Assembly (NCBI GenBank): GCA_950295325.1
Contig: OX485807.1
Span: 11,745,001-11,809,000 of the forward strand
DNA length: 64,000 bases
Direction: 5' to 3'
Source: Polytrichum commune
Lineage: Eukaryota > Streptophyta > Polytrichopsida > Polytrichales > Polytrichaceae
How positions within the stretch are numbered: the stretch's first letter is position 1; each line of letters opens with the position of its first letter. Below the pieces are notes generated by a model. The model was given only the letters and a program-made list of their open reading frames with translations. It had not been told where the DNA came from and made no database searches. Made by a program: the position numbers and the translations under genes. Shown one piece after another: positions 9,868 to 64,000 of the stretch.

Positions 9868-12800
9868 ATGTTCACCCCGGGTCGCGCGAAGAAGCAAACT
9901 CCGAGTAGAGTGCGAGGAGAGAGCTACGGGGGTGAGATTGTGGGGACGCCAACGTCCGTGCCGTCTTCTGTTGCTGCGTCGCGCCCGTCGCTGTCGCCAT
10001 GGCCATCTCCTGCTCCCACTGCCAATGTTCCCAGGTAATCTTCGAGGTTGATTGAAATGCTTGCTGTGTGGGTAGAGGTTTTAGTTGTCCAGCAATAGCT
10101 CTTCGGGAGCATATGGAGTGAAATAGTCTGATGAATTGGGCAATGTAAGTAACGTGAGTGACGTTTTGAGCATTTCAGGATATGGAGGGGTTGGATAACA
10201 AAAGAAAAATTGTATGATCATGTTAAGGTGAGCGGGTCTTAAATGAATGCTTTTAACTCTGCACCCACTTCTCGTAGGATATGAAATACGCAATTAGTGC
10301 AAGATGACTAGCAAATCCACATCGTGCCTGTGGACACCTTCCTTATAATTTTCGGAGCTCATATGAATATCTCATTCATTATCAAATGAAGATTCTCTCA
10401 TCAATTGATCATTTTGGTGTCCCCGATTATGTTGACTATCGAGTTTAGAATGGTTAACAGAATTTGCGCACTTCGTCCAATTTTTTTCAAACACATGTCA
10501 TTTTGGTGCCCATCTTTGATCTACAGATCATACACACCATTCAAGTGTAGGTGTCCGTTTAAGATGAGTAATCGAATTAGGCCCACTTACCTTAATTGAA
10601 TCCAAATCAGGAACATGAAATTTGAGCTTGCTAAGTCTGGAGTCCATGTGAACATATTATGAATTCTTGAAGTGAAACTCAAAGATGACCTATCATGGTT
10701 TTCTTTCAAATATATGTATTTCAGACTTGCATATATGCAAATGCATTGGAAACCATTGTAGGTCACTCCAGATTATGTGCACCCACCTTACTCCTTCGTT
10801 GTGGATATCAGACATAAGCACTGAAGTTCTTTCAACGGTGTATTTTAAAGGGGTACCCGTTTTCATGGGTCTTATTGAAATGGCAATTTTGATGAGATAG
10901 TTATCCCCCAGTTTAGAGGATACGAGGTCTCGAATACTCTCTTGTAATCGACCAGTAGAGGGCCCAAGTTGCTTCTGGGGGTATGTTTTCACATTTATAA
11001 TATAACCAAGCAACTATGCAGAATAAATCTACTGCAATTCTTCGTGCTGTTTTCTAAGTTAGCTCAATCTCCATGGGAAAAAAAAATTCTCATGTTGTAA
11101 ACCTGAAAGGTGTAAGGATGAGAATCTCGGGCACTAAAAGTTGGACATCCTTCATAGTTTTAAAGTCTTACAGAAAAGACAGTTTGCAGCAGTGTAGACT
11201 ACAGTAATTACTGTTAGCCATATTTGTTGTAACCTAATTGACAGAATGACCTGGAGTGTGGTACCCCTTAATTCTGCTCGGTAATCCCCAATTGAACGTG
11301 ATGGTTGCTTTTGAATGATGCCCTCATAATGGGTTTTCGATACAGTGTGAAAATGCCTGTGAAACTTCTGAAGGCTGTCTATGACTAATTGGGTATTGAG
11401 CAGGACATTCTTATGTAGAAATATGATCATCTATGGGCATAAGGAGCAGTTTTTCCTAATCTAGATTGCATTTCACAAAGATCTGATTGGATTCCATGAG
11501 CAATTCTGAGGTGTGGCTCTTATGAACTGGTCATGAATCATGAGTTGGGGACTTGGCCAACCACTTGATGGGCAATGAGTTGGCGCTTCTCACTTGTATT
11601 ATAACCTACATGCATGTCCTTCATAATTTCTACATGTTTTCTTGGAGCAGTTGGAAGAGCTTCGTAAACTTTATACTTTTCTTGTGTTGTTGTTTGTCAG
11701 CTCAAGGAATTAGGGTTGACAGGCCACATCTCATCTAGGTGCTCTCAATTGCATCTAACTAAATTTTTTTCTGGAAAGCAGAATCTGGAAATTGTCATTC
11801 ACGTTATTTTGAATTTTTTTTGATACTAAACTTGGTGCTAGCAATGAGTTCTGACTGTCAACATTTAGCAGTTCTTAAGTTCTATACAAATTGTTGGGGT
11901 CATATTAGATATTACATTTCAAGCCCTGAAATTGGACTGCAAATGTGGCAGGACAAGCATTGTGAATCGAACTGGGGATAAAGGAGGTGGTACAGATGGA
12001 AACCAACCTGTATTTGTGTGCGATCTACCTCAACAGCTTCGTGCTCTCCACAGTGATTCTGCACTTTCCTCTCAACCAGGTATGGTGGACATATGAATTG
12101 AGTATTGCCAGAACTGTTTTATTCTGGAACTAAAAGGTCAAAATCATATACTGCTTATTCTTGACGGCCTTCTCAGTAATTTGGAGAACTGTTAGTTTTT
12201 CTAGTGCTTGAAGAAATATCTTCAATGCTTATGCAGATGGAGCAGGACTACAAGGTGGCATGGATGGTAGGAGTGGGTTATCCTGGGTACTACAAGGAAA
12301 TCAGTTGTATGTGTGGAGCCACCTACGGAGTAGGAGCTGCGTCCTCAATATGCCTCGGTTGGGAAGGTTAAACAAAGATGATACATGGCTAGTCAGCCTT
12401 GTGCCACATCAACTTGATGAAGATGTGGAGTCCTCTTATATCAAGGGCTGTGACTCAGTGAGTGTTGTGATGTGCTCCAGCAAAACTCTAGCAGTTGTTT
12501 ACTGGCCTGATGCCTTCTCAAATGGTGATAAGGAGGCACTCACAAGCATGGAATCTGAGGACACTGCAACAGCGTCTCCCTTGAATGATGAGAAGCGTAT
12601 TACCCGCAGGTTGTCTGGCTGGACAGGAGCCACAGGAACCCCAATAGTCACATCAATACAAGCGACGGCAACCAGCACTCCAGGCAACTGTGTAGCTATT
12701 GTGGGGCGGTCTGATGGGGAGCTGTGGAGATTCAATTGTACCGCAGAGAATATCTCCCGGGAAAGCATTGTGCGCGAGGTTACAGTGGCTGAGGTAGGCT

Positions 12801-15800
12801 ACAGCATTTTTGTGGCAGATAGTAGCAGTGCAAGATCTATTGTATGGCTGGGCCCTGCTCAGGGATCTTCTCGGGAGTTTCTGCTACTAACAGCACAAAG
12901 CATAGAGTGCTGGGAGGTAGAGCTCACACCGAACGGAAAGGTTTCAAAAGTGTGGACATACGAAATTTCAAATGACAAGGATGTTATGTATGACTTGTCT
13001 GGACAGAAGCAGGTATGGTTACTGGATTTACAGCTAGATGAATCAGGAAAAGAGTTCACTATGTTGGTTGCCTCCTTCAGCAAGGACAGAATAACCAGCT
13101 CAAGCTACATGCAGTATGTTCTCCATTATTTTAGCCATTATAGCAAAGGAGAAGTCAAGCGCAAAGCACCCCCACAAGTGATTTTGCCCAAGGCTCGTGT
13201 AGAAGAGGAATCCTTCTTATACTCAATGCGATTGCGGGTAGGTGGGCAGCCAGCAGGCTCTGCTCTAATTCTTGCTGCAGATGGGACAGCCACCATTGCA
13301 CATGTGGGTCATGGTGGGAATGTCAGGTTGTATAAGTTTGAGTTGGCCTGGGGAGCTGGGAAGGTGTTGGATGCCTGTGTCATTCCTGCTGATGAACCGG
13401 GTGCTTGGTTAGTGCTCACGGAGCAGGCAGGGGTCTGGGCTATTCCAGCCAAGGCAGTCTTCACAGGCGGAGTTGAGCCCCCAGAGCGTAGTTTATCTCG
13501 CCGTGGGAGTAACAATGAGGAGACAAGTAAAGAGAACCGGACCCAAATGGTGGTTGATGAAGATCTGGCATTGGAACGGACAAGTTCAGAGCCTGGTATG
13601 GGATCGTGCCCTAGTTTTTAAGAGAATGTGAAAATTTGATTTGTATGAGAGACCCCTTGACTCTCTGTAGACACAGAGATACGTATTGAGGTTCTTGGTG
13701 TCTACTAGTTTATCACAGAAAATATGGTATTTTGATTTTCAGTCCTGAAGTTATGATCCCCTGGCCTTGGATGTGATGATTGTGAGAATTACACTGCAAT
13801 CCTGTACCACCATGATATGTATATGGACATGTAAATACAATAAAATCATACAGTAATGAAATTTCCAATCAAGTCTTACTTCCATACAATGAATGTCTGA
13901 GCATTCCATTCTGGAGATATTGTAGGTGAGACGAGCATGGACCTTGCTGTAGTCCCACACCCTTCACAGGATGAGGAAGCAGAAGCCATTGTGGGGAGAC
14001 TATTTCAGCAGTATTTGAGTTCTGGACATGCAAACTCAGCATTGAACAAACTGCAACGTGCGGGGGCCTTTGAGAGAGATGGTGATAGGAATGTGTTTGC
14101 ACGTACCAGTCGTGCCCTGGTGGATACATTTGCAAAGCATTGGGCATCTGGGGGTGGATCTGGGTTGGCTGTTATTGCAACTGTCTCGTCACAGCTTGCA
14201 GAGAAGCAGCGGAGACACCAGCAGTATCTAAACTTTCTTGCTGCCACGAAGTGCCATGAAGAACTTCAAAACAACCAGAGTATGTATTTCTGATCTGCTT
14301 ATGCTTGCTTGGAGTGTAAAATGGTACCATTTTGTACCAACGACACTATGTGTGGATTCCAAAACCGACAAGAATATGTGCAAGGGCATGACTTTTGTAG
14401 TGCTTCTAGGGTGATGTTTGTATCACTGAATTGAGCTTGTGAAGATGTTGAAAACTTACCAATTTGAGAAGCTGGATCTTGAATTGCAGGAGCTGCATTG
14501 AATGAAATCATGGAGCACGGAGAGAAGCTGGCAGGCATGGTGGCACTTCGAGAGTTGAATAATAGTCGTGCACAGGCTAGTCCTACATCCCCCACCCTTG
14601 TGCAATACAATCCTGGAGAATTAAGTGGAGCACAGTGGGACATGGTTCAACTTGTGGGAGACAAGGCACGCAGAAATAATGTCGTACTGATGGACCGGGA
14701 CAAAGTGGAGGTCTTCTACACACGGGTGTCTGAATTAGAAGAGCTTTTTGCCTGCATACAACAACATGCCGCTGTACTTGTCCAACGAGACCAGTCTGTG
14801 CGCATCCAGATTGAACGAGCGTGTGAGCTTGCTTCTGTCTGTAGCACCGTGTTGCAAGTGGCCATATCTTACCGTGACACACAACAGGGATGGTATCCAT
14901 CACCCGAAGGCCTGACCCCATGGTTCTGTAAACAGACAGTGCGTGCTGGTGTATGGAAGGTTGCAACGATGCTACTAGAACTGAAGGTTGAGGCAAATAT
15001 GAGTGAACCAACATTGACAGAAGAGGTGATGAGACAGGTAGAAGAGATGGCAGACCTCCTGTTGGAATCCTATGCAGGGGCTATCACTGCCAAAGTAGAA
15101 CGGGAAGAAGAGTACAGGGGTTTGCAGATGGAGTACTGGACTCGAAGGGACTTTCTTCTATCTTCTCTTCAGCAGCATGCTTATGAAGTTGCTGGACAGG
15201 TTCCTACGTGCCTGTTCACTTGTTCCAGGATCTTGCTTGTCTTCTTTCTGCCCCATATCCTGCTACTGTCATATACCTGCAATGTTGTTTGTATCTTGAT
15301 ACTGGTTTGTATAGATTAATGACATGATCAATTGACGAGTCTTGTAGAAACTAGTGATTAGGCTGAATTGCTGTGAATGGATATTATTGCAGAACATCAG
15401 AAGGGGTGATGGAGCTGAACGGCAAAGGTTAAGCATACTACAGAAGCTCTATGCCCCACTGATTGCACTGGCACGGCGCCATGCAGCTTTCCCCAGTCTT
15501 CTTCAGATGTGTAGAGACCTTGATGACGAGAAGCGCTTGCGCAGCTTGATGGTGTGTGTACCCTCAACCTGCAATATTTCTGGGCACTTTCTTTATTGGA
15601 ACCCAAGGTCCTCTGTGTCTCTCCCTGTCATTGTGTCTTCATTCATGAAATCGGAGTCTGTATAGATATTTTCCTACTGGTCCACCTGTACTTCTTAGCT
15701 ATAATTGCATTAGGATATGGGTTCTAATCTGCCTAAATGAAATTGCTGAGTATGAAATTACCTGGGTGACATTATGGTTTCCCCGTTTAGCTTCCATTAA

Positions 15801-26936: not shown

Positions 26937-28979
26937 TCAGACTTGAGAAGCTCTTTCATCAGAATTAGTAGGGCTTTGACCAATACTACTTTGAAAATCG
27001 TTATTGGCATCATTCCGTGAGCCTCCACTTGAATTCAACATCAAATCAGATGTTGATGGAACCCTGTATGGCTTTGGTGGTAGTGGAGAAGTAGAGATAT
27101 ATCCAGAGAAATCACTGCTCCTTGACCTCTGATGACCCCCAACTGGTGATGATGGTGTTGATCGAGTAGTCAGTGATATAAGGTGAGGGTTGGCTGCCTT
27201 GCCACCTCCCTCTTCCCTCTCTCTTCTCTCCCTCTCTTTGGATTCCTTGAGCAGGAAGTTTATCCACAGATCTGCAAAGGATTCGTTCTCCACAGAAGCA
27301 GGTGGAGGAAGAGATTCAGAATCCTCACTAATTGTACTGGTCCCAATAAAGCGACTGGGAATATTAAATAACCCCCGCACCATTCCACCTCTAGCACTCT
27401 GTTGTGCCAACCCCACCCGTTTCTTGTCATCCTCTGTAAATCCCAGCATGCGCACCATAAGATCCAATACTTCCCTACTGTGATGTCTTTGGATGTAGGT
27501 TACCAGAAGCTTGATGACAATGCGCCTATCTACATAGAAATCAGAGTCAGAGGACATGCGGTTGAGACTGGTAATAGATTGCTCAAGTGCACCACGAAGT
27601 TGTAGTACATCCTCTTCCAGCTTTCTGATGATTTGCTCCAATTCCTGCTTGCGAAGCTCAACATTCATTAGCTTCTTCACAACTGTCTCCATGTCCTGGA
27701 CTTTTAGGTCAATAGTTGCATTCGCAATTCGCAAGTCTTCAGTTAGTCTGGCATTCGACTCCCTGACCTCACGTAGCTCCAGCTCTAGGCGCTCCTGAGC
27801 ATCACTCTCTGCATAATACTGCCCAAGAGCACTTTGAAGATTTGAAAGTTCCATGTCCTTCGACTCTAGAGCCACTAAGCAGGTTTCCAACTTTTGCTTC
27901 AAAAGCTCCATCTCTTCATTTGTGTATTTCGACAATGAAGCATTGCTCTTATTTGCCGCAGCCAACTCCTCAAGTGCTTTACTTAAGGCTTGCTGCAACT
28001 GCATGACAGATCGCTCACTGGTCTGCAGCCGTGATTCGAGATTTGAAATCAAAAGACCATCACTCTCCATCTTCTCTGCAGTTGAGGCCTCCATATCCAA
28101 AAGATTTTGCCTCAACCTTCCCAGATTTAGACGTGCTTTGTCTCGCTCAACCGAAACTTCTTCCACTTTCAGCAAAGCTTCTTCTAGTTTCTTTTCAAAC
28201 TCTTCTGTGTGGAGTAAGCAGGCATCCTCCATAGTTTTTAATTTTTCAGACAGCAACATCACCTGCTCAGGTTCAGCACTTGATGTGTGTAGATGCTCCT
28301 CACTGATACCATTACAAGCGGGTTTGTCTTCACCATACTCAGAGTTGGTGGCATCCAGTAAAAGAGGTGCTGATAACTCCTGTGTTTCCTTTACTCCTTG
28401 GGATCCTGTCTTCAACATATTTGATTCATCAAATGCAGCATTGTCATGTTCAGAAGTCCCCTCAAGATCTGTCTCCACTGTCACCACCATGGCCTCCTCA
28501 TCTTTAAATTGCTCTGTTGCTGGCAGTGTTGCAATTTCTTTCTCCATTGCTTGCCCCTTGAAAATCTGGTCATCCTCTTGAAGGTTTTGGTCAGTCTTGT
28601 TATTTCCATCATCTGACAAGGTCACAGCTTGCCTTGTACTAATCATCAACAATTGTGCTTTGAGCACTTCATTTTCTTCCCGCAGAATCGAAACCTCCTC
28701 CTCTTTCTCTTTCAGGATAGCAGCATATTTTGCCGATGCAGCTTCCATATCACTCTGTGAGCAAAAATCTCTGTCCCTTTGATACTCCAGCTCTGAAGGG
28801 AGATGTGTTTCAAGATCATATTGGGGATGTGAAAACTGAGAGTGCCCATTGCTAGTGCTATAGTGACCCTCTGAACCATCAAGTGACACTCCATCAAGAT
28901 CTTGCTGGTCCAACACATCAGAAGCAATCTGTGTTATGTTGTCCTTCAGCTCCTTGAATTTCTCAAACGTGCTCCACAT
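26937..28979 (-). CDS. Golgin candidate 3/4-like protein with GRAB domain
   Basis: Golgi-associated coiled-coil tether. Plant golgin candidates 3 and 4 bind ARF1-type GTPases through a C-terminal GRAB (GRIP-related ARF-binding) domain. One open frame of 680 codons starts MWSTFEKFKELKDNITQIASD, like the MWxSI...KENL...IA start of the family. Heptad-rich coiled coil covers about residues 80-115 and 235-490. The conserved block LGQYYAESDAQERLE (about 390) is followed by the GRAB region LNRMSSDSDFYVDRRI and KLLVTYIQRHHSREVLDLMV (about 480-530). The tail has FADLWINFLLKESKERERRE and ends Ser/Pro-rich. Length is near the Arabidopsis proteins (about 700). No intron interrupts the coding region, which is unexpected. 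Any introns would be in the 5' leader. Confidence 0.92.
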   Translation of the reverse strand: MWSTFEKFKELKDNITQIASDVLDQQDLDGVSLDGSEGHYSTSNGHSQFSHPQYDLETHLPSELEYQRDRDFCSQSDMEAASAKYAAILKEKEEEVSILREENEVLKAQLLMISTRQAVTLSDDGNNKTDQNLQEDDQIFKGQAMEKEIATLPATEQFKDEEAMVVTVETDLEGTSEHDNAAFDESNMLKTGSQGVKETQELSAPLLLDATNSEYGEDKPACNGISEEHLHTSSAEPEQVMLLSEKLKTMEDACLLHTEEFEKKLEEALLKVEEVSVERDKARLNLGRLRQNLLDMEASTAEKMESDGLLISNLESRLQTSERSVMQLQQALSKALEELAAANKSNASLSKYTNEEMELLKQKLETCLVALESKDMELSNLQSALGQYYAESDAQERLELELREVRESNARLTEDLRIANATIDLKVQDMETVVKKLMNVELRKQELEQIIRKLEEDVLQLRGALEQSITSLNRMSSDSDFYVDRRIVIKLLVTYIQRHHSREVLDLMVRMLGFTEDDKKRVGLAQQSARGGMVRGLFNIPSRFIGTSTISEDSESLPPPASVENESFADLWINFLLKESKERERREREEGGGKAANPHLISLTTRSTPSSPVGGHQRSRSSDFSGYISTSPLPPKPYRVPSTSDLMLNSSGGSRNDANNDFQSSIGQSPTNSDERASQV

Positions 28980-31099
28980 TGTGACCGGCTTTTGATAAAC
29001 TTCCCAATCTGCTATTCCTCCAACAAGAAATAGCTCTTGATGATCTCACTACCCCAGAAATTCCAGACTCCAGAAACTTTACAATTACAAATTCCTCAAA
29101 GGCACTGAAACCAAACAAATGATTGTCATTTCAGTGGAGGAGGTTGTCGAGGTTGGGAAACTCTGTATCCAAGGTCCCAGGCACACATGATGAATAACCA
29201 ATCCAGGGCTTAAGTATGGGATGATTAAGGACCAGACATGCATCCAGGCAGCCAAATGCTCCTCCCAGACACGTACCTGAGAGTTATCTGCTCCCAAACA
29301 ATATGAGCTTGTAGAGACTAAGTGAGCAACAAACGTCCTGCCCAGTGCTCAGAAAGTTGAAGATTTCTTGGTAAGCCAGTAGTAAGCAAGTGGTCTGAAC
29401 AGGCCAAGCATGCTACCCATTTGCAGATTTTGACGATGCAAGTTCAGAACATACTTCAATTGAAGTATATACTCAGTGCAGTTGCACAATCAAGCTGGTT
29501 ATAGGCCCACACAGCCAGATGATTGTGGATATTTGAATGCAACATGAGTGGCGGGAGCTGCACCGTGCAATAAGCACAAAGTTCAGGTTGAAATATCCCC
29601 AAAGATCTATATCTATGCCTCTTACAAACAACTGCAATGTGCACTGGCTTTAGATTTATTCATTTGCCCCACACACATGATATGCCTCTCTATCAAAACT
29701 AGACGGCCATGTTCTGCTACTACTTTCTCACAAACTGACGTCAACTAAGGCTACCCTTGTAGAGGAGTCAAATCCTTCAAAAGGAACTAAGGAAGCATGA
29801 GAGGAAAGCAAAGATCAACCTCACCGACTTAATGGCTTTCTTATTTTGCAAACTACGGAAGTAGCAAGTCTTCTAGAACAATGGACAAAGTGTTTACAAA
29901 AATCTCTAAGGAAAGTACTTCAGATGTCGTGATTTGCATCTATACCAGAAGATATGAATCCTAAGAGGCAAAAGAGGACACAATTGTGAATAGATCAAAC
30001 ACAAAAAGTCAATCATCTCAACGTGAAGCCTTGAATTATAAATATGATGCCAAGGAAACTCAGCAAATCACATTGTGATTTAGTGCTTGGCCTGCCAAAA
30101 TGCTATGTCTAATTTAGTGTTAGGTTTCGCACAAACTTTGATTTCACCAACTTAATGCACTTACCACATGTCTTGATGCTGGTGTGATTCTCCACATCAT
30201 CCAAAATTGGCTGGCACGATTCCGTCCATCCTACAATCATAAGTCACTTCAGTAAAGTCATTCTTGAATCATATGTTCTTACCTGCATATCAGTCGGTCA
30301 ATTAGAATGAGTGTTCACCTTTTGATAAAGGTCAAACAGTATGAAATCCTCCTTGACGTGTAATTCGTGTGTGTTTTGGTCAAACTACACAGCTGTTTGT
30401 GCAATCGTAGGTTTGGGAGTCCAATTGTTAAAACCGTTTTGGTTGCAATGGCAAGTGAGGGAACAGAGATGGCAAAAGAGATAAGAGAATTAAACGGCTT
30501 GATGTTTGAACTTTTATAATTCCATATTGTGGAGCTTGGCAGCAGCATTTGGTGGGAAGATAAGCTTTGCTACCAGTAAGGAAATGCTCAAGGTATTCCA
30601 GCACTGAAAACTACAGTTCCAGAGCAAGAACAGGACAATTAGGTGGAACTAAAAATTCTAGGCCACAGAACGCATCCTTAATAACAAGCTCGTTAAAAAG
30701 AGATCAAGGAATGACTTCCAAATTCCATATATTACTCAATGCTACACCACAAACAGTTCACATAATTAAATCCAAAGCTCCTCACACTAATCTTCATCTC
30801 TTTGTACAAGATCCTCTCTTCTGATGCATACACCAAGAGGAGATTTCATAATAACTTGATGAATCCCGCAATCAATCACATAAATCTTGCACACTCAGAT
30901 TTAAAAACCCTCACTCGAGTCACCAATGGTTGGAACATTGATCTCCAAGAACAAAAGACAAAGCGCGCTCCCCGACGTAAGGAAGGATCTGGAACAGCAC
31001 AGCACATCAAAACCTAGAAGAGACCCACAGCTTATGCAAATTCTGGAACTAGAAATCCAACACTCAGAAAATAAACTGCCTAAATTCGACGGTATAAAG
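28980..31099. other. Upstream region of the golgin gene
   Basis: Probably 5' UTR with intron(s) on the minus strand plus intergenic DNA. No other gene could be supported. Short frames on both strands lack domain signals. Confidence 0.4.
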
Positions 31100-54636: not shown

Positions 54637-54930
54637 CACTACAACAGATTGGGTATTTTGTGACTAGGGAAATATGACTGGGGATGACTGGTGACTACAT
54701 GCAGTCACATTTTTCCAGGCCTCGACCTTTGGGGTGTACGAAATTCAAAAATATGACTCGCAGTCATATTTTACTGTCGTATTCGGAAAATGTACTGTAT
54801 ACGGCATATGGGAACGCCGACTGCCTTTATAGGGAACGACGGGGAATGTGTATGGTGGACGCCCAGTCATATGTGGCAGTCATATTTTTCTGCGAGTCAT
54901 ATTCTTCAGTCACATTCTGACTAAGACCAT
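54637..54930. repeat. CACTA element 2 terminus with subterminal TATGACT repeats
   Basis: The terminal CACTACAACAG is followed by at least eight direct and inverted copies of TATGACTG/CAGTCATA or close variants. Such clusters are the known binding targets of CACTA TnpA-type proteins. Confidence 0.85.
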
Positions 54931-55291
54931 TTTTTTGCTTTTTTTGGGCAGCCCTTGATAATTCAGGCTGCCCAAGACGGGCCTTTTGTGTTTTTGCCCC
55001 ATGACTCATTATCTAGTATTATGGTTTGGATTATTGGTTTAATAATGAAAGATTTTGGTCAAAATTAAGTACTTTGTGTGTTATAGTATGAACGGCAATG
55101 AAAATTGGGAATGGCCTATGTTTATTTATTGAATAATTAACTGATTGATGTTTTAGGGAGTATAGGGGGGAAATTGGGGAGGAAATTTGATTCTTACTAT
55201 TGCCAAAAGACTAATTGAACATGTATATAATTGAACTTAAATATATACCCACCTAAGTTTCAATTATACAACTTCTTGCTCGGACGGGAAG

Positions 55292-58200
55292 TCAATCACC
55301 GTCCGAGTCGCAAAGCTCGGAGTCATCTACCGATGCGTCGTCCGGTCCCTCTAGACATTCTAATGCCTTAGCAACCACTCCTGGCCCCACTTCCACTGCA
55401 TCGCCCAATATGGGTGTCTTCGGTACGATATCGTCATGTAAAGCCGTCACTTGTAATCCGGGAAAATCAGAAGTCCTACCTAGTGCTATGCATTGTACTT
55501 CATCCGTTCTTTGTTGTTTGGAGAATACCCGAACCCCTCTCGGTTCCTTACGCAAAACAACTTCCCATCCACTCTTCGCGACGTTAGGTGCAAAAAAAAC
55601 TTGTTCGATATGGAGAGGAAAGGCAAATGATTGTGCTGAGTAAGGAATCAATCTGTCAAAGTTTACAATGGTGAAACCATAGTCGTCGCGCTTCATCGTC
55701 GCCCCATCTCCCTTCATGTTTGCAACGACCCAATTGCAATAGAGGACCACCACCTCGAAGAATCCATAGTCCACAGAGAGGATTTCCTCAACCCAACCCA
55801 CATACTCCAACTCCGCTGCCTTTGGATTTGTGTCATTCAGGCCCGAGCGACATAATTGTTGAAATGTGGCGGCCACCCCAGAGTCCATCGTTGTCAATTG
55901 CGCCTGTGCGCTTCGGACACGGATGTGGTTTCCAAACGCATACATGGATCGATACGACTTCGCTGCATCCGATGGAGGTAACATCAAGGCCCTAACGTCT
56001 TCTTGAACCTCCTCAGACCCTTCTTCTATGGCGCGCACCACTGCTTTTGGAAACCAAATGTGGAAATCCTCGTCGCGCAACTCCGCTGGGTACATTACCC
56101 GCGCCTTCCGTTTCTTGCGCCTGTATTCGTACCGCTCACATTCCCGCCGTGACATGTCATCCTCGTGTTTCCTGCATTTTGGTTACAGCCCAACACATCA
56201 TTACCCGTGACATGCTGAAATCACTAATGGCAGTCATATTATGCATACAACATTAGTCGTACTGTGTCGCGATAACTACAACGAAATGCATATTTTACGA
56301 CTACATTTTGTGATTGTACTCAGTCATATATCCCAAAATATGACTGAGTGCAGTCATGAATTTTGGTCATGTGAGATGAGTTTTGTGGAAGTTCGTATGG
56401 ACTGGACTGTTGTTCTAAGAGAGGTGGTGCATTTAAGGTCTTTCCACTAAAATCAGAACTCACCTCCTCCACTCTTCCAGTGGTGCCGCATTGTTCACCA
56501 CGAACTCATGTATCCATTGTCGAAGGTCGGATGGGAGATGACGCATCCGCCCGCCACCTTCGAGGATCTCATCATACATTGATGGGTCTTCTTTGTCATC
56601 CCACACTCTTCGAGTGGTGACTGTATATTCTTGCATATACTCCGTGCAGAATCCCAATGCCTCTACTATGGCGTAGCCTTCAGCCATGCAACCCTCTGGT
56701 CGAGTACGGTTTCGGACATACCCTTTGAGAGTCTTCAGGTACCTCTCTATAGGGTACATCCAACGTGTATGTACGGGTCCACAAATTTCCACTTCCTCCA
56801 CGATATGCATGACCAAATGGCTCATGATGTCAAAAAATGATGGTGGGAATTTTTTTTCCAACATGCATAGTGTTATGGCCGCTTCACACCTCATCTCATG
56901 TATTGTTGCGGGATCAATGGACTTAGCACACACCCTCCTGAATACACGGCTCAACATTATTATTGATGTCCGCACTTCCTTTTCCATTGTGCAGCGCACA
57001 CATAGTGCCAACACTTGCTACATGAGGACATGGTAGTCATGGGATTTCAGGCCTTTCATTGTCCCATCCACGTTTACGCGCTTCTTCAATTGTCCCACAT
57101 AGTGAGTGGGGGTTCGCAGTGCACGCACTTGCTCCACAAAGACTTCACGCTCTTCTTTCGTCATAACGTAAGAGGAGCGAGGTAGAATCACGCTACCGGG
57201 TTTTGTTTCTGCTACGGGCCAAAGATGCGGGCGTATGCCCGCCTCCTTCATGTCTAGACGAACTCCAATTGTATCCTTCTCTCCAAATATGGTTTTCATC
57301 ACATTCTCAACGATGTTTTTCTCACAGTGCATAACATCCAGTGTGTGTCGAATTAGAAGATCCTGCACAGTGACTCCAGCCAGTGAGAAATTTGCCGATG
57401 CGAATCACAATATCACTGCGTGCAATCATGTGACTGTACATGACTACACCCACTCACATAATACTCATAAACAATATTACTATATGCAATCATGTGACTA
57501 CGTCCAGTCACTTATCACAGCTAATAATATACACGTACTTTCCAGTATGGAAGGTCATATAGACATGTCCTCCTCTTCATTCCATGATTGTGTACGGGGT
57601 CTGTCGTCTGCCCAGTTTGGTTTCTGTAGTGTTTTTGAGACCACTCTTCTCGCTCGTTCGCATATCACAATTGCTCTCGACCACTCATCCTTCTTGGCGG
57701 TGGTCTCATCTCCGGCTGCCCATCAAAATTGGACCTCTGTCGTCTCCATTGGTGGGTCATTGGTAGTTGTCGTCTATGTCCAAGGTAAACATTCTTTTTC
57801 AACGCTTTGGAACGCCGTGTTGCCACGTTGGGGCCACACACGGGGCACGCCCTATGTCCTTTTGTTACTTGCCCGGAAATCAAACCGTACGCCGGGAAGT
57901 CATTCACCGTCCACAAAAGCAAGCCATGTAGCTTAAATGTTTTATCTTTGGAGTTTCCTTGCGATCCGTCCAAGCAGTCGATCCCTTTCCAAAGCTCTTG
58001 GAGCTCCTCAATCAAAGGTGCCATGTACACATCCACATTCTTGTCCTTCACACTCTCTTTTCCTGGTATGATTAGCGCAAGCATCATGAAGAAGTTTTTG
58101 GTCATTAACCAAGGGGGGAGATTGTAGTTCAGCATGACCACGGGCCAAGTAGAGTGGCTGAGGCTTTGGTTCCTAAATGGATTTACGCCATCCAGTGCAA

Positions 58201-60517
58201 GGCCAAGCCTAACGTTCCGTTCATCTTCCGCAAACCACGGCCACCTATTATTTACGTGGTCCCAAGCCTTCGAGTCCACCACGGACCTCATCACCTTGTC
58301 CTTACTTTTCCCTCCTACATGCCACTTCATTAGCTCCGCGATCCGTGTGCAGCTGTACATCCTTCGCAAACGAGGAATCAGAGGAAAATGTCTCAAAACT
58401 TTGACTGGAATTGTACTGGAGTTCTCTACAAAGCGCGATTTGTGGCATGTTGGGCACTCCGTTGCATTCTCCAACTCTTTCCGAAACAAACAACATCCAT
58501 CTCTACACGAATGTATTGAGTTGTAGGACAACCCCAACTTCATCAATAAGTCTTTCGCCTCGTTGAATGATTTCGGTAGTGTGTTGTCCTTGGGTAAAAT
58601 TGTCTCCTTCAACAACTTCAACAACTCATCCACAAAGTTGTTTGGTACGGCGAAGGTGGTGCAACACAATAGTATCAAGAGTGTCGATGTGAGACGATTC
58701 GAGGGGCTTCCCTCATACAGTGGAGTTCCAGCTTCGTTTAAGAGAATTTGGTGGTCTACCCCACTGGGGTCCTCACTGTTCATGGTACTCCCTCTTGTTT
58801 CCATGGGATCATGCATTTCTTCCCTTTCCCCCTCGCTACCATCACTGTCCCTCGTTGTGAAACCATCCTCCCCTTCATCGTCTTCAACCCATGCATCCCC
58901 GAGTCCCTCATGTATGGTGGCTTCGGTTTCGTGTCCGTCATAATTGAGGCCATCGTACTTGCCGAAGCACTCTGCCACCATACGTAGAACCTCAACTTCT
59001 CCATCATGTCCATCGTTTGTGTTAGGGTATGTCTGGCTTCTTTGCCCAGTCCGTGGTGCATGGGAGAACAAGTCAATCGGGCTGTACTCGTCCTGCAGAG
59101 AGTGATAAATTTGTGCGCACGTTATATATTTTCGCTTTGGCAGAAACATATGACAAGGACTCATAACAATGACAAACATAGACCACGGATTGTATATAAC
59201 ATGGACCTAATATATACAAATGTATGAACACGACAAAGAGCAATCCCAAGTAGTGTTGTATCACAAGGACGAGTCATAAATTTGTGACTTCTGTGTTACA
59301 TGGTTCTGTCATAAAATGCGCGCTGTATCTAACGAGGGGCAATCATGAAACGCCGAATATAACATGAACGTGTAACATGCGTGGGGGGGGTGTTCATCGA
59401 TTATGAAGACAAGAGTGTGTCAGGTAAAAGAAATTTCATGCAACATACAACGGAAAAACAATGGATGTAAAAAATTGGTCATGTTCCACGTACACATTTA
59501 TACCGTGGTGTGGACATGTATACAAAATTTTGTCAAAACAAAACATGACTTGGTGTAGTCATGTTAGTGAGCACATGGCACACTTACTCATTCCTAATAT
59601 GGACTAATGAGTGCCAGCCTACAATGCGGTGTGCGGGTTCAAAGAGTAGTGTGCATACAACTCTTCTCCGACCAAAATGTTCTTTGTGGCTAAAGTGATT
59701 ACATACCCCCATTCATGTTTGTTCCAGGGTTTTGGCAACATGCGAAATTCCCACACCACATTTCCTATTTCTTTGCGTCCTATGGAACTATTTATGAAGC
59801 CAGCGACATTCCCCTTCATTACATCTCCATCGATGTACAAGTCCGGCTCAACTTGCATCGCATATGACTTCACTCGAGGTTGTGCCTTCTTCAAAGCTCT
59901 GTATTCTCCCAAGGTGTATTGTGGTCCTACAAATGGAAGCAGTTCCTCTCCCTCTTTGGCGGGTTGAAGTGCAACGAGACCCCAACCCATGAATGGGAAG
60001 TTGGACACCCTTACTTCCCATTCTCTATTCCAGTATGAAAACTTTATAAGTTTTGGGATGGGCCCGTCACACTACTATCCGTCATACACGTTTGACCCCC
60101 ATGTCTGCAAGGCTCGTACTCTTGCAGACGTTGTGTTTGGCATCGACTGTGAAGGCGTTTCGTATCCTCCTAGAAACTTTCTCAGGGATGTCTTGCAAGC
60201 AGCTTTTACAATGGGTCTCCATCGGGCCTATAAAATTCATGTACACAAGGATGAAAACTCGCTCATAGCATGACCACCCGCTTACGCTCATTCAAAAGTC
60301 GTTTCATGGAATGACTCACCAAGATAGACGCTGTAAATACAGGGTCCCTTTTTTTGCTACGAAGATGCTTTCGGATTGTGGCTCGATCGAGGACTTTCCC
60401 TCCTGCACACTCCATGCATGGGCATGGGTACTTGGATAGCCGCATTGCGTCTGCTTGGACCTCTTCTTCTTGCCATAACTGTAGATGCTTCAAGCTTTCG
60501 ACCTCCCCTCCTGCCAT
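55292..60517 (-). CDS. CACTA transposase TNP2 (Transposase_21 family), two internal stops
   Basis: DDE-type transposase of the CACTA (En/Spm) superfamily. Exons by GT-AG and phase: 60,517-60,320, 59,092-57,539, 57,362-56,464 and 56,171-55,292, giving 3,531 nt or 1,177 codons including the terminal stop. Exon 1 has the Transpos_assoc-like finger (CPCMECAGGKV, then IRKHLRS). Exon 2 has an acidic spacer and then the classic blocks LLKLLKETILPKDN, LMKLGLSYNSIHSCRDGC, KVLRHFPLIPRLRRM, NVRLGLALDGVNPF, LLWTVNDFPAYGLISG and RACPVCG, ending LYDLPYWK. Exon 3 has RHTLDVMHCEKN, KKFPPSFFDIMSHLV and RWMYPIERYLKTLKGYVRN (DUF4218). Exon 4 has the DUF4216-like VGWVEEILSVDYGFFEVV and an acidic tail. A TGA in exon 2 (after SGREQL) and a TAG in exon 3 (after HDYHVLM, where the family has Gln) make this copy defective unless read through. 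Confidence 0.93.
59619..60227 (-). CDS. SET-domain exon inside the CACTA transposase gene
   Basis: Putative lysine methyltransferase-like domain. After an acceptor (TTTTATAG|GCCCGA) the frame reads ARWRPIVKAACKTSLRKFL and RVRALQTWGSNVYDG, meets two adjacent TAG codons (60,077-60,072), then stays open for 151 codons: KLIKFSYWNREWEVRVSNF, then MGWGLVALQPAKEGEELLPF (the G-x-G start of SET), YAMQVEPDLYIDG, GNVAGFINSSIG (the position of the NHxxxPN pseudoknot motif), NVVWEF, and VGEELYAHYS (the GE-E-L-xx-Y motif), ending at TAG 59,619. The order and spacing match a SET core of normal size. The pre-SET and post-SET Cys clusters are absent and NHSC is replaced by NSSI, so activity is uncertain. It shares TNP2's first exon in phase, or could be its own gene. 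Confidence 0.85.
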
Positions 60518-60650
60518 CCTGTGATGTGCACGGCATACGGGGCGGGTCAATTTGTGATATCGGGATACCTTACAAGGAGTGAGTGCTCACATGCGCGCAG
60601 TCACTTGAATATTTGGATACATACGAAAGGGTGGTCAAATAACCCAAGGC

Positions 60651-60812
60651 AGTCATATAACACACGGGAGTCATATAACACATGGGAGGCATATAACACA
60701 CAGGAGTCATATAACACATGGCAGTCATATAACACACGGGAGTCATATAACCCATGGCAGTCATATAACACACGGGAGTCATATAACACATGGCAGTCAT
60801 ATAACACACGGG
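60651..60812. repeat. 18-bp minisatellite, nine copies
   Basis: Nine contiguous units of AGTCATATAACACACGGG with CATGGC/CATGGG variants start every 18 bp from 60,651. The unit core AGTCATA is the same as the motif of the element's subterminal repeats. It lies just upstream of the TNP2 start at 60,517, on the promoter side. Confidence 0.95.
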
Positions 60813-60829
60813 AGTCAGTCATTGATGGT

Positions 60830-61900
60830 AATTGAATAATTATTTATGATGTTCCTAAGTTTACACGGAATTCAAGGAAATTCAAAAAGTTAATGCCCAC
60901 ACTATATTGGGTTATGAAACTTACGCCCATAACCAGATTTACCCTCTTTTCTTTTGAGCATTAAATTTAGGGATAACTTTTCATAATCTCATTTAGATAT
61001 TCTAAATTTGAGTACTTAACAAATATTCCGATTCAACCCGAGCTGACTTTTCGCCCTGTTTGCCTAATTTTAAGCGGCCCCTAAATATATCGTAATCGAT
61101 TCGGCATGATTCATATACCCCAGTTATACGTAAGTGTGGTGAAGCCCATACTTTTTTTTTCTAAAAGTAATTTCAACGGGGCCCTAAGTAGATCCACAAT
61201 CGTCCCTTTTTACCCTGTTCTTGAAATCGAGCTGACTTTTCACACTGTTTGCCTCTTTTTAAGCGGCCCCTAAATATATCGTGATCGATGAGGCCTGATT
61301 ACATTAAATCACATTACATTAAATTCTGGCCCCGCCCGGATTTTTTCCAAACCCTAAAAAAAAATAGCTGCCCGCCCCACCCGAAATCGAAAAAAACATT
61401 GCTCTTCCATTCTTGAAGGCCGCTTGACTACAAATCCCATATTGAGTGCACTTCACCTTCAATGTCTCAAATCCAATATATATGTGTACTTCCACCTAGT
61501 AATTAAGGCATTAAATGGGATTTCATCCCGGAAGTGAAACCATCAACCAAGACTGTAATTAACTTGGAAGTCAAAAAATTAGAAAATCCTCATCAACATT
61601 GAGGTTATAATTTTTATGACTTACCATTTGAAATTGTCTTCGTCATTCTTAAATGTCACTTAAATTTAGTGTGCTGATGTGGTTGGTATATTTTATAATA
61701 TTTTAGATAATTATGGCTACTTTCAAGAATATTCATACGCACTTAAGTATAAAATATACTTAATGGAACTAATTAATCAAATATTTTAATTACCGGTTTT
61801 AATTGGAGTCACGCTTCCATTAATTAAAAGTTAGGGTTAATTAGGCTTACTGGATATAAAAATTGGGTACATGTAACTACTGAAATTCCATTTTTATAAG
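60830..61900. other. Divergent intergenic region between TNP2/SET and the plus-strand gene
   Basis: AT-rich sequence about 1.1 kb long with no ORF of note. Two related blocks around TAAGCGGCCCCTAAATATATCG occur at about 61,070 and 61,260, each preceded by a GAGCTGACTTTTC block (about 61,040 and 61,220), a direct duplication about 190 bp apart. It probably contains promoter sequence for one or both flanking genes. Confidence 0.5.
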
Positions 61901-61908
61901 TCATGATA

Positions 61909-62260
61909 ATCTCTCTCTCTCTCTCCCCCCCTCCCTTCATCTCTCTCTCCCTCCCTCCCTCCCTCCCTCCCTCCCTCCCTCCCTCCCTCCCCCTCTCCCT
62001 CTCCCTCTCTCCCCCTCTGCCTCCCTCCCTCCCCCTCTGCCTCCCTCTCTCTCCCTCTCCCTCTCCCTCTCTCCCTCTCTCCCCCTCTGCCTCCCTCCCT
62101 TCCCCTCTGCCTCCCTCTCTCTCCCTCTCCCTCTCCCTCTCTCCCCCTCTGCCTCCTTCCCCTCCCTCCCCGCGCCTCTCCCTTCCTCGGACATCTGTCC
62201 CCGACTCTGTCTCTGTCTCTCCTTCCCTCCCCCCCACCTCCCCGCGCTCTCTCCTCGCCA
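61909..62260 (+). repeat. CT-rich polypyrimidine tract (CCCT/CT microsatellite)
   Basis: About 350 bp consisting almost wholly of C and T on the plus strand, mostly CTCTCTC, CCCT and CCCCCTCTGCC units, with a longer CTCCCTCTCTCTCCCTCTCC-type unit repeating about every 65 bp. Long translated frames here (Arg/Glu/Gly or Ser/Pro/Leu runs) are artefacts of composition. Its place suits the transcribed leader of the gene at 63,504. Confidence 0.9.
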
Positions 62261-62449
62261 TCTAACCTGTATCGCCGAACCCTCCCTCCCCGCGCTCTCT
62301 CCCTTCTACCTCGGCCATCTAACCTGTATCGGCGACCACCTAAGCCACAACCTTCTACCATCCCCTCCCGCCTCCCCTGCCTCCCCGCGCCCTGTCCCTT
62401 CCTCCTCGGCCATCTAACCTCCTCGCCATCTAACCTAAAGCCACAGCCT

Positions 62450-63300
62450 TCTACATTCGGAGCACTCGGAGCATTCGGAACATTCGGAGCATCAGGTAAG
62501 TGTAGGGTTCGGAGCATCAGAGCCATGTAGGGTTCGGTGCTGCTTGAATAGTTCGAAGAAGTTTTTGGTTCGGTGCTTGCAGGATTCGGTTGACTTTTTG
62601 GGTTCGGTGCTTGAAGGATTGCCTCCAAGGAATGGTTCGGAGCATCAGAATGATGCTGGGTTCGGTGCTGCTTTTCCGATTCGGTGCCACAGCCAAGTAG
62701 TCTTCGCATCAGATAATTGCTGGGTCCCTATCTAAGTTGAAGGATTCGGTGCAGTGCTCACAAGGAGCATCAGACAAGTGTTGGGTCTCATTCAAAGGTG
62801 ATTATGCAGTGCTCACAAGGAGATTCAGTGGAGTGTTGGGTTCGGTGCTCTATTCGGACAGTGGTTACTCGGTGCTGTATCGGTGTGTGGGTGCCCCTGT
62901 GAGACTGCATGAAGTGTGCTAAGTTCGGCCACAGCTAAGTTCGGCCACAGCTAAGTTCGGACACAGCTACTTCCATCCTTTGCTCTGATCGGTGTGTGGA
63001 TACTTCGGTGCCTTTCAACTTTTTGGGTTGAGGGTACCCCCAATTCGGACACTAAATCGCTCTCATTTTCGGCGACTCTCGCTCTTCAAGATTGAGAGGG
63101 AGGGCTCTCCCTCTGACTACCCTTTTCTCTCACTCTCAAAGGTTGTGCACTCTCTCATCTCCAAGGCTAAGATTTTAGGTTAAATATTAATACTTCAAAA
63201 TTCTCAAAACTTGTACTTTGAAAGACGACATGTAAATTGTCCAATGATCAATCCTAATTCGGACACTAAATCTGCATTCGGAGTGGATTCCTCTAGATGT
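62450..63300 (+). repeat. TTCGG-rich leader / intron region
   Basis: TTCGGTGC, TTCGGAGCATCAG and TTCGGACA/TTCGGCCACAGC motifs recur more than 20 times in about 800 bp. An excellent donor (CATCAG|GTAAGTG) occurs at about 62,493, and an acceptor (ATTGTAG|AATC) at 63,499 sits just before an ATG. Much of this stretch could therefore be a leader intron of the downstream gene. Confidence 0.6.
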
Positions 63301-63503
63301 CTCATACTAATACCCCACACACACAAAGTAATACGAAGAGGAGAAAGGTGAGCTCACTTGAATTCGCACCTTTCGCGTCGTTCAGTTGTGGAGGTGATGG
63401 TTGTACGACACCTCCTCCGCTCACATGTAGCTGGAACAACAGCAATGGGGACAACCTTATTGTCCTCAATTAACACTAATGTGCATTTGGGTATTGTAGA
63501 ATC

Positions 63504-63631
63504 ATGGAGGAGGAAATTCCGGAGTATGAGAGGATGCGGAAGAAAAACATCGAGGCCAACAACCAGAAGCTGCGGGAACTGGGTCTGTCACCGATTGGGA
63601 CTTCTCATTTCAAGAGGCCTGAGGACCTCGG
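63504..63631 (+). CDS. First coding exon of a CACTA-associated protein (partial)
   Basis: After an acceptor at 63,499 an ATG opens 42 codons (MEEEIPEYERMRKKNIEANN, then LRELGLSPIGTSHFK) ending at a CTCGG|GTATGTATG donor in phase 2. The pattern YExxRxxNIxxNxxxLxxLGL is a short helix found at the start of many plant proteins, several of them carried by transposons. The rest of the gene lies beyond the window or in exons not seen by 64,000. It runs opposite to TNP2, behind a CT-rich leader. Whether it belongs to CACTA element 2 (its likely TnpA-like partner) or to the host depends on where the right terminus is. Confidence 0.6.
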
Positions 63632-63689
63632 GTATGTATGACCAAACCCTAATACAACGGACCCGCTACTGCTAGGGTTGCTTCTGAAT

Positions 63690-63960
63690 TTTGAAACATT
63701 TATGAGTCCTTGTAGTCATAAAGTGCATACAACTCGCTGAAGACATGACTGTTTGCAGTCATAGTTCAAATTATTATGACTCCCTGTAGTCATAGTGCAA
63801 ATTATTATGACTCCCTGTAGTCATACTTTAAGGTCATTATGACACAGTCCAGTCACATTTGCTTGATTATGACTCCTCCTAGTCATAAACATATTGTAAC
63901 TTCTTCCCACCCCTTTGTTGTTGTGCATCACATGTGGCTTCTATTGGTTTTCTATGATCA
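63690..63960. repeat. TATGACT/AGTCATA repeat cluster, right side
   Basis: About ten copies of TATGACTCC, GTAGTCATA or CAGTCACA variants, including a near-exact tandem ATTATGACTCCCTGTAGTCAT pair at about 63,770-63,830. It is the same motif as at the left terminus, so either it announces the right end of the element just beyond 64,000 or it lies in an intron of the plus-strand gene. Confidence 0.85.
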
Positions 63961-64000
63961 AGCAGTTATGATCATGTGTATGAACAATGTTCTTGTTTGT

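Follow-up and report, generated by a model that had tools for sequence, protein, structure and literature searches.

A lineage of CACTA/EnSpm transposons in Polytrichum commune carries, between the first exon and the main exon of the transposase gene, an exon encoding a SET domain, which is present and conserved over at least four subfamilies and open in many copies. From its frame and splice sites we strongly infer that this exon serves as an alternative last exon of the transposase gene, giving a product, TAD-SET, that would share its beginning with the transposase. The fuller reading, that the SET ending is a permanent second ending of the gene and that TAD-SET acts as an anti-silencing methyltransferase, is given here a probability of about one in two. 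Chromatin marks keep plant transposons silent, and to our knowledge few counter-measures encoded by the elements themselves have been recognized; if the reading is true, a SET enzyme retained by CACTA elements over long evolutionary times would show directly that a transposon can write histone marks. SET domains in DNA transposons are already known, but their presence in a CACTA element appears to be new within the literature searched.

The SET Exon and the Element Around It

In the 64,000-nucleotide stretch of DNA analysed (the window), a minus-strand open reading frame at 59622-60071 matches the Pfam SET profile (PF00856) with 35.6 bits, against a cut-off of 22.4 (E 1.4e-8), the domain being near-complete, with profile positions 1-104 of 105 aligned. 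All of the peptides that the first-pass annotation quoted for a recognisable SET core are present, and with the profile match significant, the possibility that there is no SET domain at all, which that annotation had left standing, falls away. The neighbours of the SET exon are on the minus strand as well, exon 1 on one side and the TNP2 exon on the other (Table 1), and the position and orientation claimed for it amid transposase exons thus hold. The exon has its own stop, however, and therefore it cannot be the internal transposase exon that it had been taken for. The gene of the window copy is broken, its SET frame being split by stop codons and its DUF4218 exon by a second lesion, an in-frame TAG at 57020-57018; the 20 copies compared with it below were picked for open frames.

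Table 1. Features of the CACTA element that carries the SET exon, in window coordinates.
Feature	Position	Strand	Remarks
CACTA element	54637..64000, on to 70251 (window numbering, beyond window)	-	15,615 bp, complete
3' terminal inverted repeat	54637..54660	-	
Last transposase frame, DUF4216-like	55295..56182	-	PF13952 27.3 bits, below cut-off 30.6
Next transposase exon, DUF4218	56463..57362 (ends approximate, by eye)	-	PF13960 130 bits
Main transposase exon	57668..59092	-	TNP2 domain 57674-58300, PF02992 246 bits
ATGACT-N6-AGTCAT palindrome soon after SET stop	59545..59562	.	
SET exon	59622..60227	-	202 codons in L022 and L024; stop TAG 59621-59619
SET domain core	59646..59987	-	PF00856, residues 29-142 of frame 59622-60071
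Two adjacent in-frame TAG codons	60072..60077	-	SET frame split in window copy
Intron between exon 1 and SET exon, gtgagt...tatag	60228..60319	-	92 bp; from splice-site homology
Exon 1, coding part, ends ...FTASIL	60320..60517	-	partial Transpos_assoc (TAD)
Short tandem repeats with ATGACT, just upstream of exon 1	60651..60822	-	9 ATGACT matches

The element that hosts the SET exon is a CACTA/EnSpm transposon by its terminal inverted repeats (TIRs), target site duplication (TSD) and TNP2 transposase. The TIRs of the window element read CACTACAACA(A/G)ATTGGGTATTTT at both ends and are flanked by CGA/CGA, and its 3' end at 54637 lies where the similarity to two further copies, L022 and L024, stops. 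TIRs starting with CACTA are found at both ends of all three elements traced (CACTACAACA... in the window element, CACTACTACA... in L026 and L017). The 3-bp TSD is exact in two of the three, the window element and L026 (17,753 bp, TIRs CACTACTACAAAACACGTCTTTTA, TSD TCT/TCT), and carries one mismatch in L017 (AAA/GAA). In their CACTA TIRs, 3-bp TSD, large size and domain order, putatively TAD-TNP2-DUF4218-DUF4216, these elements are like the CACTA/EnSpm elements described in the available text of a domain survey (PMC8978399).

Exon 1 matches the Transpos_assoc (TAD) profile (PF13963) with 19.8-24.2 bits in five of five pieces, all below the cut-off of 27.7 (20.2 bits, partial, in the window copy), and with TAD below its cut-off, DNA binding by this exon is a guess. 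A U-box match exceeds its cut-off over window positions 60263-60586 of exon 1 (22.9 versus 21.4 bits); it is below the cut-off in four other copies tested and is probably a chance likeness. The upstream half of the element holds a divergent gene common to the window, L026 and L028 elements (34-39% identity over about 150 residues), for which no Pfam family was found in five pieces, a single 12-bit match being far below cut-off; judged by its place, this gene could be TnpA-like.

Copies Across the Genome and Their Descent

The genome was searched with PF00856 over 407.8 Mb in 64 contigs, nearly all bases being in seven contigs (C1-C7, 42 to 78 Mb). The profile matches at least 119 places, a lower bound, as 150 of 155 candidates were scored. 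Ninety matches, the window's own included, have the length typical of the transposon SET (327-357 bp); no stop is present within the SET in 69 of them, and 21 do have stops. In 49 of the 90 the SET is stop-free and lies in a frame that stays open for 195 codons or more, and with so many open frames in one genome, tests of expression, activity and chromatin become feasible. Twenty of the better copies, with open frames of 198-203 codons, were fetched, six rows in the same score range being passed over as broken, short or of other length. Exon 1, SET and TNP2 follow in that order and orientation in all 20, and all six blocks are recognized in 18, L010 being without a DUF4216 match and L019 being truncated (the exon 1 query for these block searches carries one intron codon). 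The TNP2 frame has 494-573 codons in 13 of these copies and 71-321 in the other seven. Six weak matches, again SET stretches without stops, were added to offset the choice of the best copies. In five of them SET is followed by TNP2, with exon 1 also present in four of the five, and the sixth (L044), a 180-bp partial match not of transposon length, is without any block. The same-genome search for TNP2 genes with SET at the same place, which the first-pass annotation had proposed, thus finds TNP2 directly downstream, in the same orientation, in 25 of the 25 transposon-length matches fetched from the 90, each of these 25 having a stop-free SET.

By SET identity to the window copy, the fetched copies fall at about 92% (L022 and L024), at 53-60% (15 copies) and at 44-45% (three). 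We refer to the window copy, L022 and L024 as subfamily A, to the 15 as subfamilies B and C, and to L014, L019 and L028 as subfamily D; the low-ranked copies add further branches. In the subfamily B copies L017, L018, L020 and L026, the intron that follows the TNP2 exon contains a repeat array with matching blocks about 65 to 360 bp long, and the arrangement of this array varies between elements.

The SET exon has descended together with TNP2 and under purifying selection between subfamilies. SET and TNP2 give congruent trees (Mantel r 0.98, p 0.0001, for 20 copies, i.e., 19 plus the window, with L019 left out; the copies are related, and the p value is a guide only). The comparison of dN/dS in the SET and transposase parts, also proposed at the outset, gives between B and C 0.17-0.22 for SET (95% limits 0.10-0.35, five pairs) and 0.15-0.17 for TNP2, and within C 0.18 for SET (two pairs) and 0.27-0.28 for TNP2. 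In three close pairs within B the values for SET (0.37-0.80) exceed those for TNP2 (0.17-0.32), SET being under weaker constraint than TNP2 in these pairs. The first 42 SET codons are weakly constrained (0.37-0.69 in four B-B and B-C pairs); beyond codon 42, dN/dS is 0.13-0.16 between B and C and 0.37 within B. Values of dS against A and D are mostly saturated.

Two origins had been considered for the exon, a stable part of the family and the capture of a host exon in one copy. The former is borne out by its presence in at least four subfamilies, by the agreeing trees and by the purifying selection between subfamilies, and the latter is at odds with 90 matches across the genome in several subfamilies. 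A chance capture or a misread, to which the window copy, taken alone and broken, would lend itself, has a negligible probability, being ruled out by the genome-wide copies, the conserved order with TNP2, the tree agreement and the dN/dS values.

A Probable Second Ending of the Transposase Gene

A homologous phase-0 GT donor after exon 1 and a tag/ acceptor are present in 21 of 21 copies (the 20 plus the window), and in each of these the SET frame begins right after the TAG, which serves as both the acceptor and an in-frame stop. Between these two sites, the intron spans about 88-117 bp in 18 of the copies, while in L010-L012 its length is 256 bp, the sizes for the four copies of subfamily C being measured from a donor a few bases too late. 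The SET exon has 198-203 codons in the 20 fetched copies, which are open by choice, and its stop codon in eight copies inspected is TAG, TAA or TGA. The first Met of the SET frame varies by copy, standing at residue 11, 15, 24, 29 or 42, and the residues ahead of it are alike, mostly xxxRPxV, with L019 and L021 deviating by one residue. As there is no common start Met and the upstream residues are kept, translation of the SET protein most probably begins in exon 1, and an internal start appears unlikely. The acceptor of the main transposase exon (ctgcag/GACGAG in the window) is in phase with exon 1 as well, and in the eight copies inspected, which represent subfamilies A-D, the TNP2 acceptors, ctgcag/GAC, catacag/GAG, atgtag/GAG and tggcag/GGA, are all phase 0, as judged by eye. 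With both acceptors in phase 0, exon 1 can thus be joined in frame to either SET or TNP2. When L026 (subfamily B) is compared with L013 (subfamily C), DNA similarity extends from exon 1 to a few bp from the SET stop, is interrupted for about 550 bp after it and resumes about 50 bp before the TNP2 acceptor.

It is very improbable, on the same observations, that SET forms an independent nested gene, using a promoter and a start of its own and unspliced to exon 1. Gene calls in databases do begin at a Met in SET's own frame, but this start Met is not common to the copies, residues are conserved upstream of the first Met, and the acceptor is conserved and in phase with exon 1 in all 21. An alternative last exon, giving TAD-SET, remains the preferred reading, and it has a counterpart in En/Spm (tnpA/tnpD) and in the soybean element Tgmt*, where, according to the available text, two proteins also come from one unit by alternative splicing; there, however, a TnpA-like protein that binds DNA, and not a SET protein, is the second of the two (PMC2613891).

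The gene would then work as follows. Exon 1, a TAD-like and putatively zinc- or DNA-binding piece, would be spliced to the nearby SET exon, yielding a TAD-SET protein of about 265 amino acids, or alternatively past SET to TNP2, yielding the transposase. TAD-SET would act as a lysine methyltransferase, its most probable substrate being the histones at copies of the element itself, and the resulting mark would keep the promoter and the ends of the element open, counteracting silencing. Its aim would come from the common exon 1 or from the other, divergent gene of the element. In its most specific form, with one gene making through alternative splicing both a mover and a self-aimed minimal histone methyltransferase that keeps the copies open, the proposal is a tentative one, with the odds somewhat against it.

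Possible Activity of the SET Product

In an alignment of seven divergent SET sequences from these elements, four features are constant throughout: MGWGL, NVAxxINS, a distal Asn and the last Tyr. We take MGWGL to be the GxG-type N motif and the last Tyr of ELxxxY to be the catalytic one. The NHxCxPN motif is absent from all seven, NSSxGR or NSSTDR with the distal N being found instead, Gly (in five), Cys or Ser takes the place of the Arg ahead of this site, and H, Y, S, F or E that of the Asp in ELxxDY, with ELxxxY and its last Tyr present in each of the seven. No pre-SET or post-SET was found in the element SETs. With NHxCxPN, the Arg and the Asp altered, and without pre-SET and post-SET, catalysis is therefore not certain. 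PRDM proteins are without the NHxC motif, yet PRDM9 is active, and PRDM9 and the small viral vSET are both active without some of these parts of SET.

The changes at His, Arg and Asp in the canonical motifs and the missing post-SET would also suit a SET fold that is kept without being an enzyme, TAD-SET serving in this case for binding or assembly, as a TnpA-like helper where the element ends. Such a role is doubtful, as the four features kept in 7/7 are those expected of a protein in which SAM binding and catalysis count, and as the example of PRDM9 speaks against it. We favour the reading of TAD-SET as a putative lysine methyltransferase that would act at the element's own chromatin.

The nearest solved structures in PDB are of Set1/COMPASS, NSD2 and ASH1L (19-26 bits, all weak), types that methylate H3K4 or H3K36; below them come SETD2, EZH2 and MLL-type chains, with EZH2, a repressive enzyme, at 16.9 bits over a longer stretch (profile 34-154). 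These matches bear on two further readings. Methylation of a protein other than a histone, for instance the transposase of the element or what the divergent gene encodes, would be in keeping with SET and TNP2 having diverged together, and such substrates are frequent for SET enzymes, but the nearest solved relatives are histone enzymes, even if the best of these matches reach only 19-26 bits, and we consider this target improbable. Still less probable is a SET protein that lays a repressive mark, the element thereby limiting its own activity. EZH2 is among the weaker matches, and the TnpA of Spm can regulate both negatively and positively, as stated in the available text (PMC2613891); the top matches, all weak, are nevertheless of the Set1, NSD2 and ASH1L types.

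Histones at the element's own copies remain the favoured target of TAD-SET, and the element contains candidate landmarks for self-targeting. ATGACT or AGTCAT occurs 96 times in the window's element, versus 8.7 expected from a base-composition shuffle. Six copies of the palindrome ATGACT-N6-AGTCAT are present in the window, none of them outside the element, versus 0.01 expected, and the whole of the element has 17. Elsewhere, one to four palindromes are found in four subfamily C copies (in the stretch examined), one in L022 and two in L024, and none in the B and D copies within the stretches examined. The motif arrays are mostly in non-coding parts of the window's element, and they were also noted in L029 and L035. 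VANC proteins bind motif repeats in VANDAL elements and induce the loss of silent marks (PMC10398659). The likeness lies in an element protein that acts on its own family and in short-motif repeats located in non-coding parts; VANC, however, is a DNA binder, for which the available text does not mention an enzyme role (PMC10398659), and the palindrome here is seen in A and C and not in the B and D stretches examined. The arrays would fit self-targeting in part, with VANC as a parallel and not a demonstration.

Relatives and Host SET Genes

At E 0.01 or better, a SET profile search returned 102 proteins. The weakest, at the end of the list, is a chytrid protein, and the final two (P0101 and P0102) are ordinary NHSC-type SETs; the sequences of 22 of the 102 were inspected. 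When 57 of these proteins are compared with the element SETs of this genome, the latter fall at several places among them. In one relative, P0096, an exon 1-like stretch runs in one frame into the N-terminal part of the SET exon, the SET core itself being off frame and without a Pfam match. Four pairs of SET and TNP2 proteins come from the same source with a longest contig of identical length (598,999; 23,147; 4,725; 2,846), which suggests that SET and TNP2 are linked in other sources too; a fifth equal value, 3,705, belongs to two different sources, and so chance matches do occur.

A TNP2 relative from the liverwort Riccia sorocarpa is among the 120 of 672 TNP2 matches listed. In a tree of 122 TNP2 proteins, 15 have TAD and TNP2 in one frame, and therefore leave no room for SET in between. 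Fourteen of these are part of a separate branch, and the fifteenth, from Riccia, stands just outside a branch of 69 rows that holds all nine SET-bearing copies used, the presence of SET being known for only part of these rows. In labelling the tree for SET linkage, P0105 and P0133 were not counted, and P0112 and P0173, which are truly paired, were dropped as short. As the proteins with TAD and TNP2 in one frame lie outside the SET-bearing branch, SET looks like a gain within a CACTA lineage. No close host ancestor of the element SET was identified among the 102 proteins. Patterns were also matched to IMG/VR and GTDB contigs, with 60 matches each, none of which was confirmed; the collections are viral and prokaryotic, so this result carries little weight.

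The SET exon was also considered as a host SET gene, and this was rejected: the clear host genes of this genome (L001-L004), which read from their sequence as ATX-like, SUVH-like and E(z)-like, carry the NHS motif, unlike the element SETs. Among the classes that one survey sets up for plant SET proteins is an Orphan class, made up of divergent SETs, and the available text of that survey contains no words beginning with 'transpos' (PMC5725981).

Precedents

Domain types 1-4 of CACTA elements are TAD, Transposase_21, DUF4218 and DUF4216, and the extra domains described in the available text of the survey are Peptidase_C48 and Transposase_24, both in ORF 2, the extra domain being SET in the elements described here instead; the word 'SET' has 0 occurrences in the main text of that survey (PMC8978399). 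No CACTA element with a SET was found among the matches listed in the full-text literature, with subscription papers and Repbase Reports lying outside this search. SETMAR, or Metnase, which the first-pass annotation offered as the precedent, does have SET and a transposase in one gene, as here, but it is described as a host fusion gene and not a mobile family (PMC2874221, available text). Nearer cases are provided by Phytophthora. HarbingerS and MuDR have a SET gene inside a DNA transposon, as here, but by the descriptions available, on which alone they are compared, they belong to other transposase superfamilies and to an oomycete host (PMC12730594). Proto-Helentron-Pi of Phytophthora infestans is a mobile element with a small SET ORF of about 153 amino acids; in the available description it is a rolling-circle element, and its SET is a separate intronless ORF likened to Clr4 (PMC4067079). 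The transposase of the elements described here is TNP2, and not of the superfamilies of HarbingerS, MuDR or proto-Helentron.

Two further observations concern the window outside the element. A 702-codon open frame on the minus strand (26940-29045) is without a Pfam match at E 0.01, and a likely piece of a host gene, with a domain like the N-terminal domain of Nup133, lies on the plus strand at 12212-13618 (76 bits).
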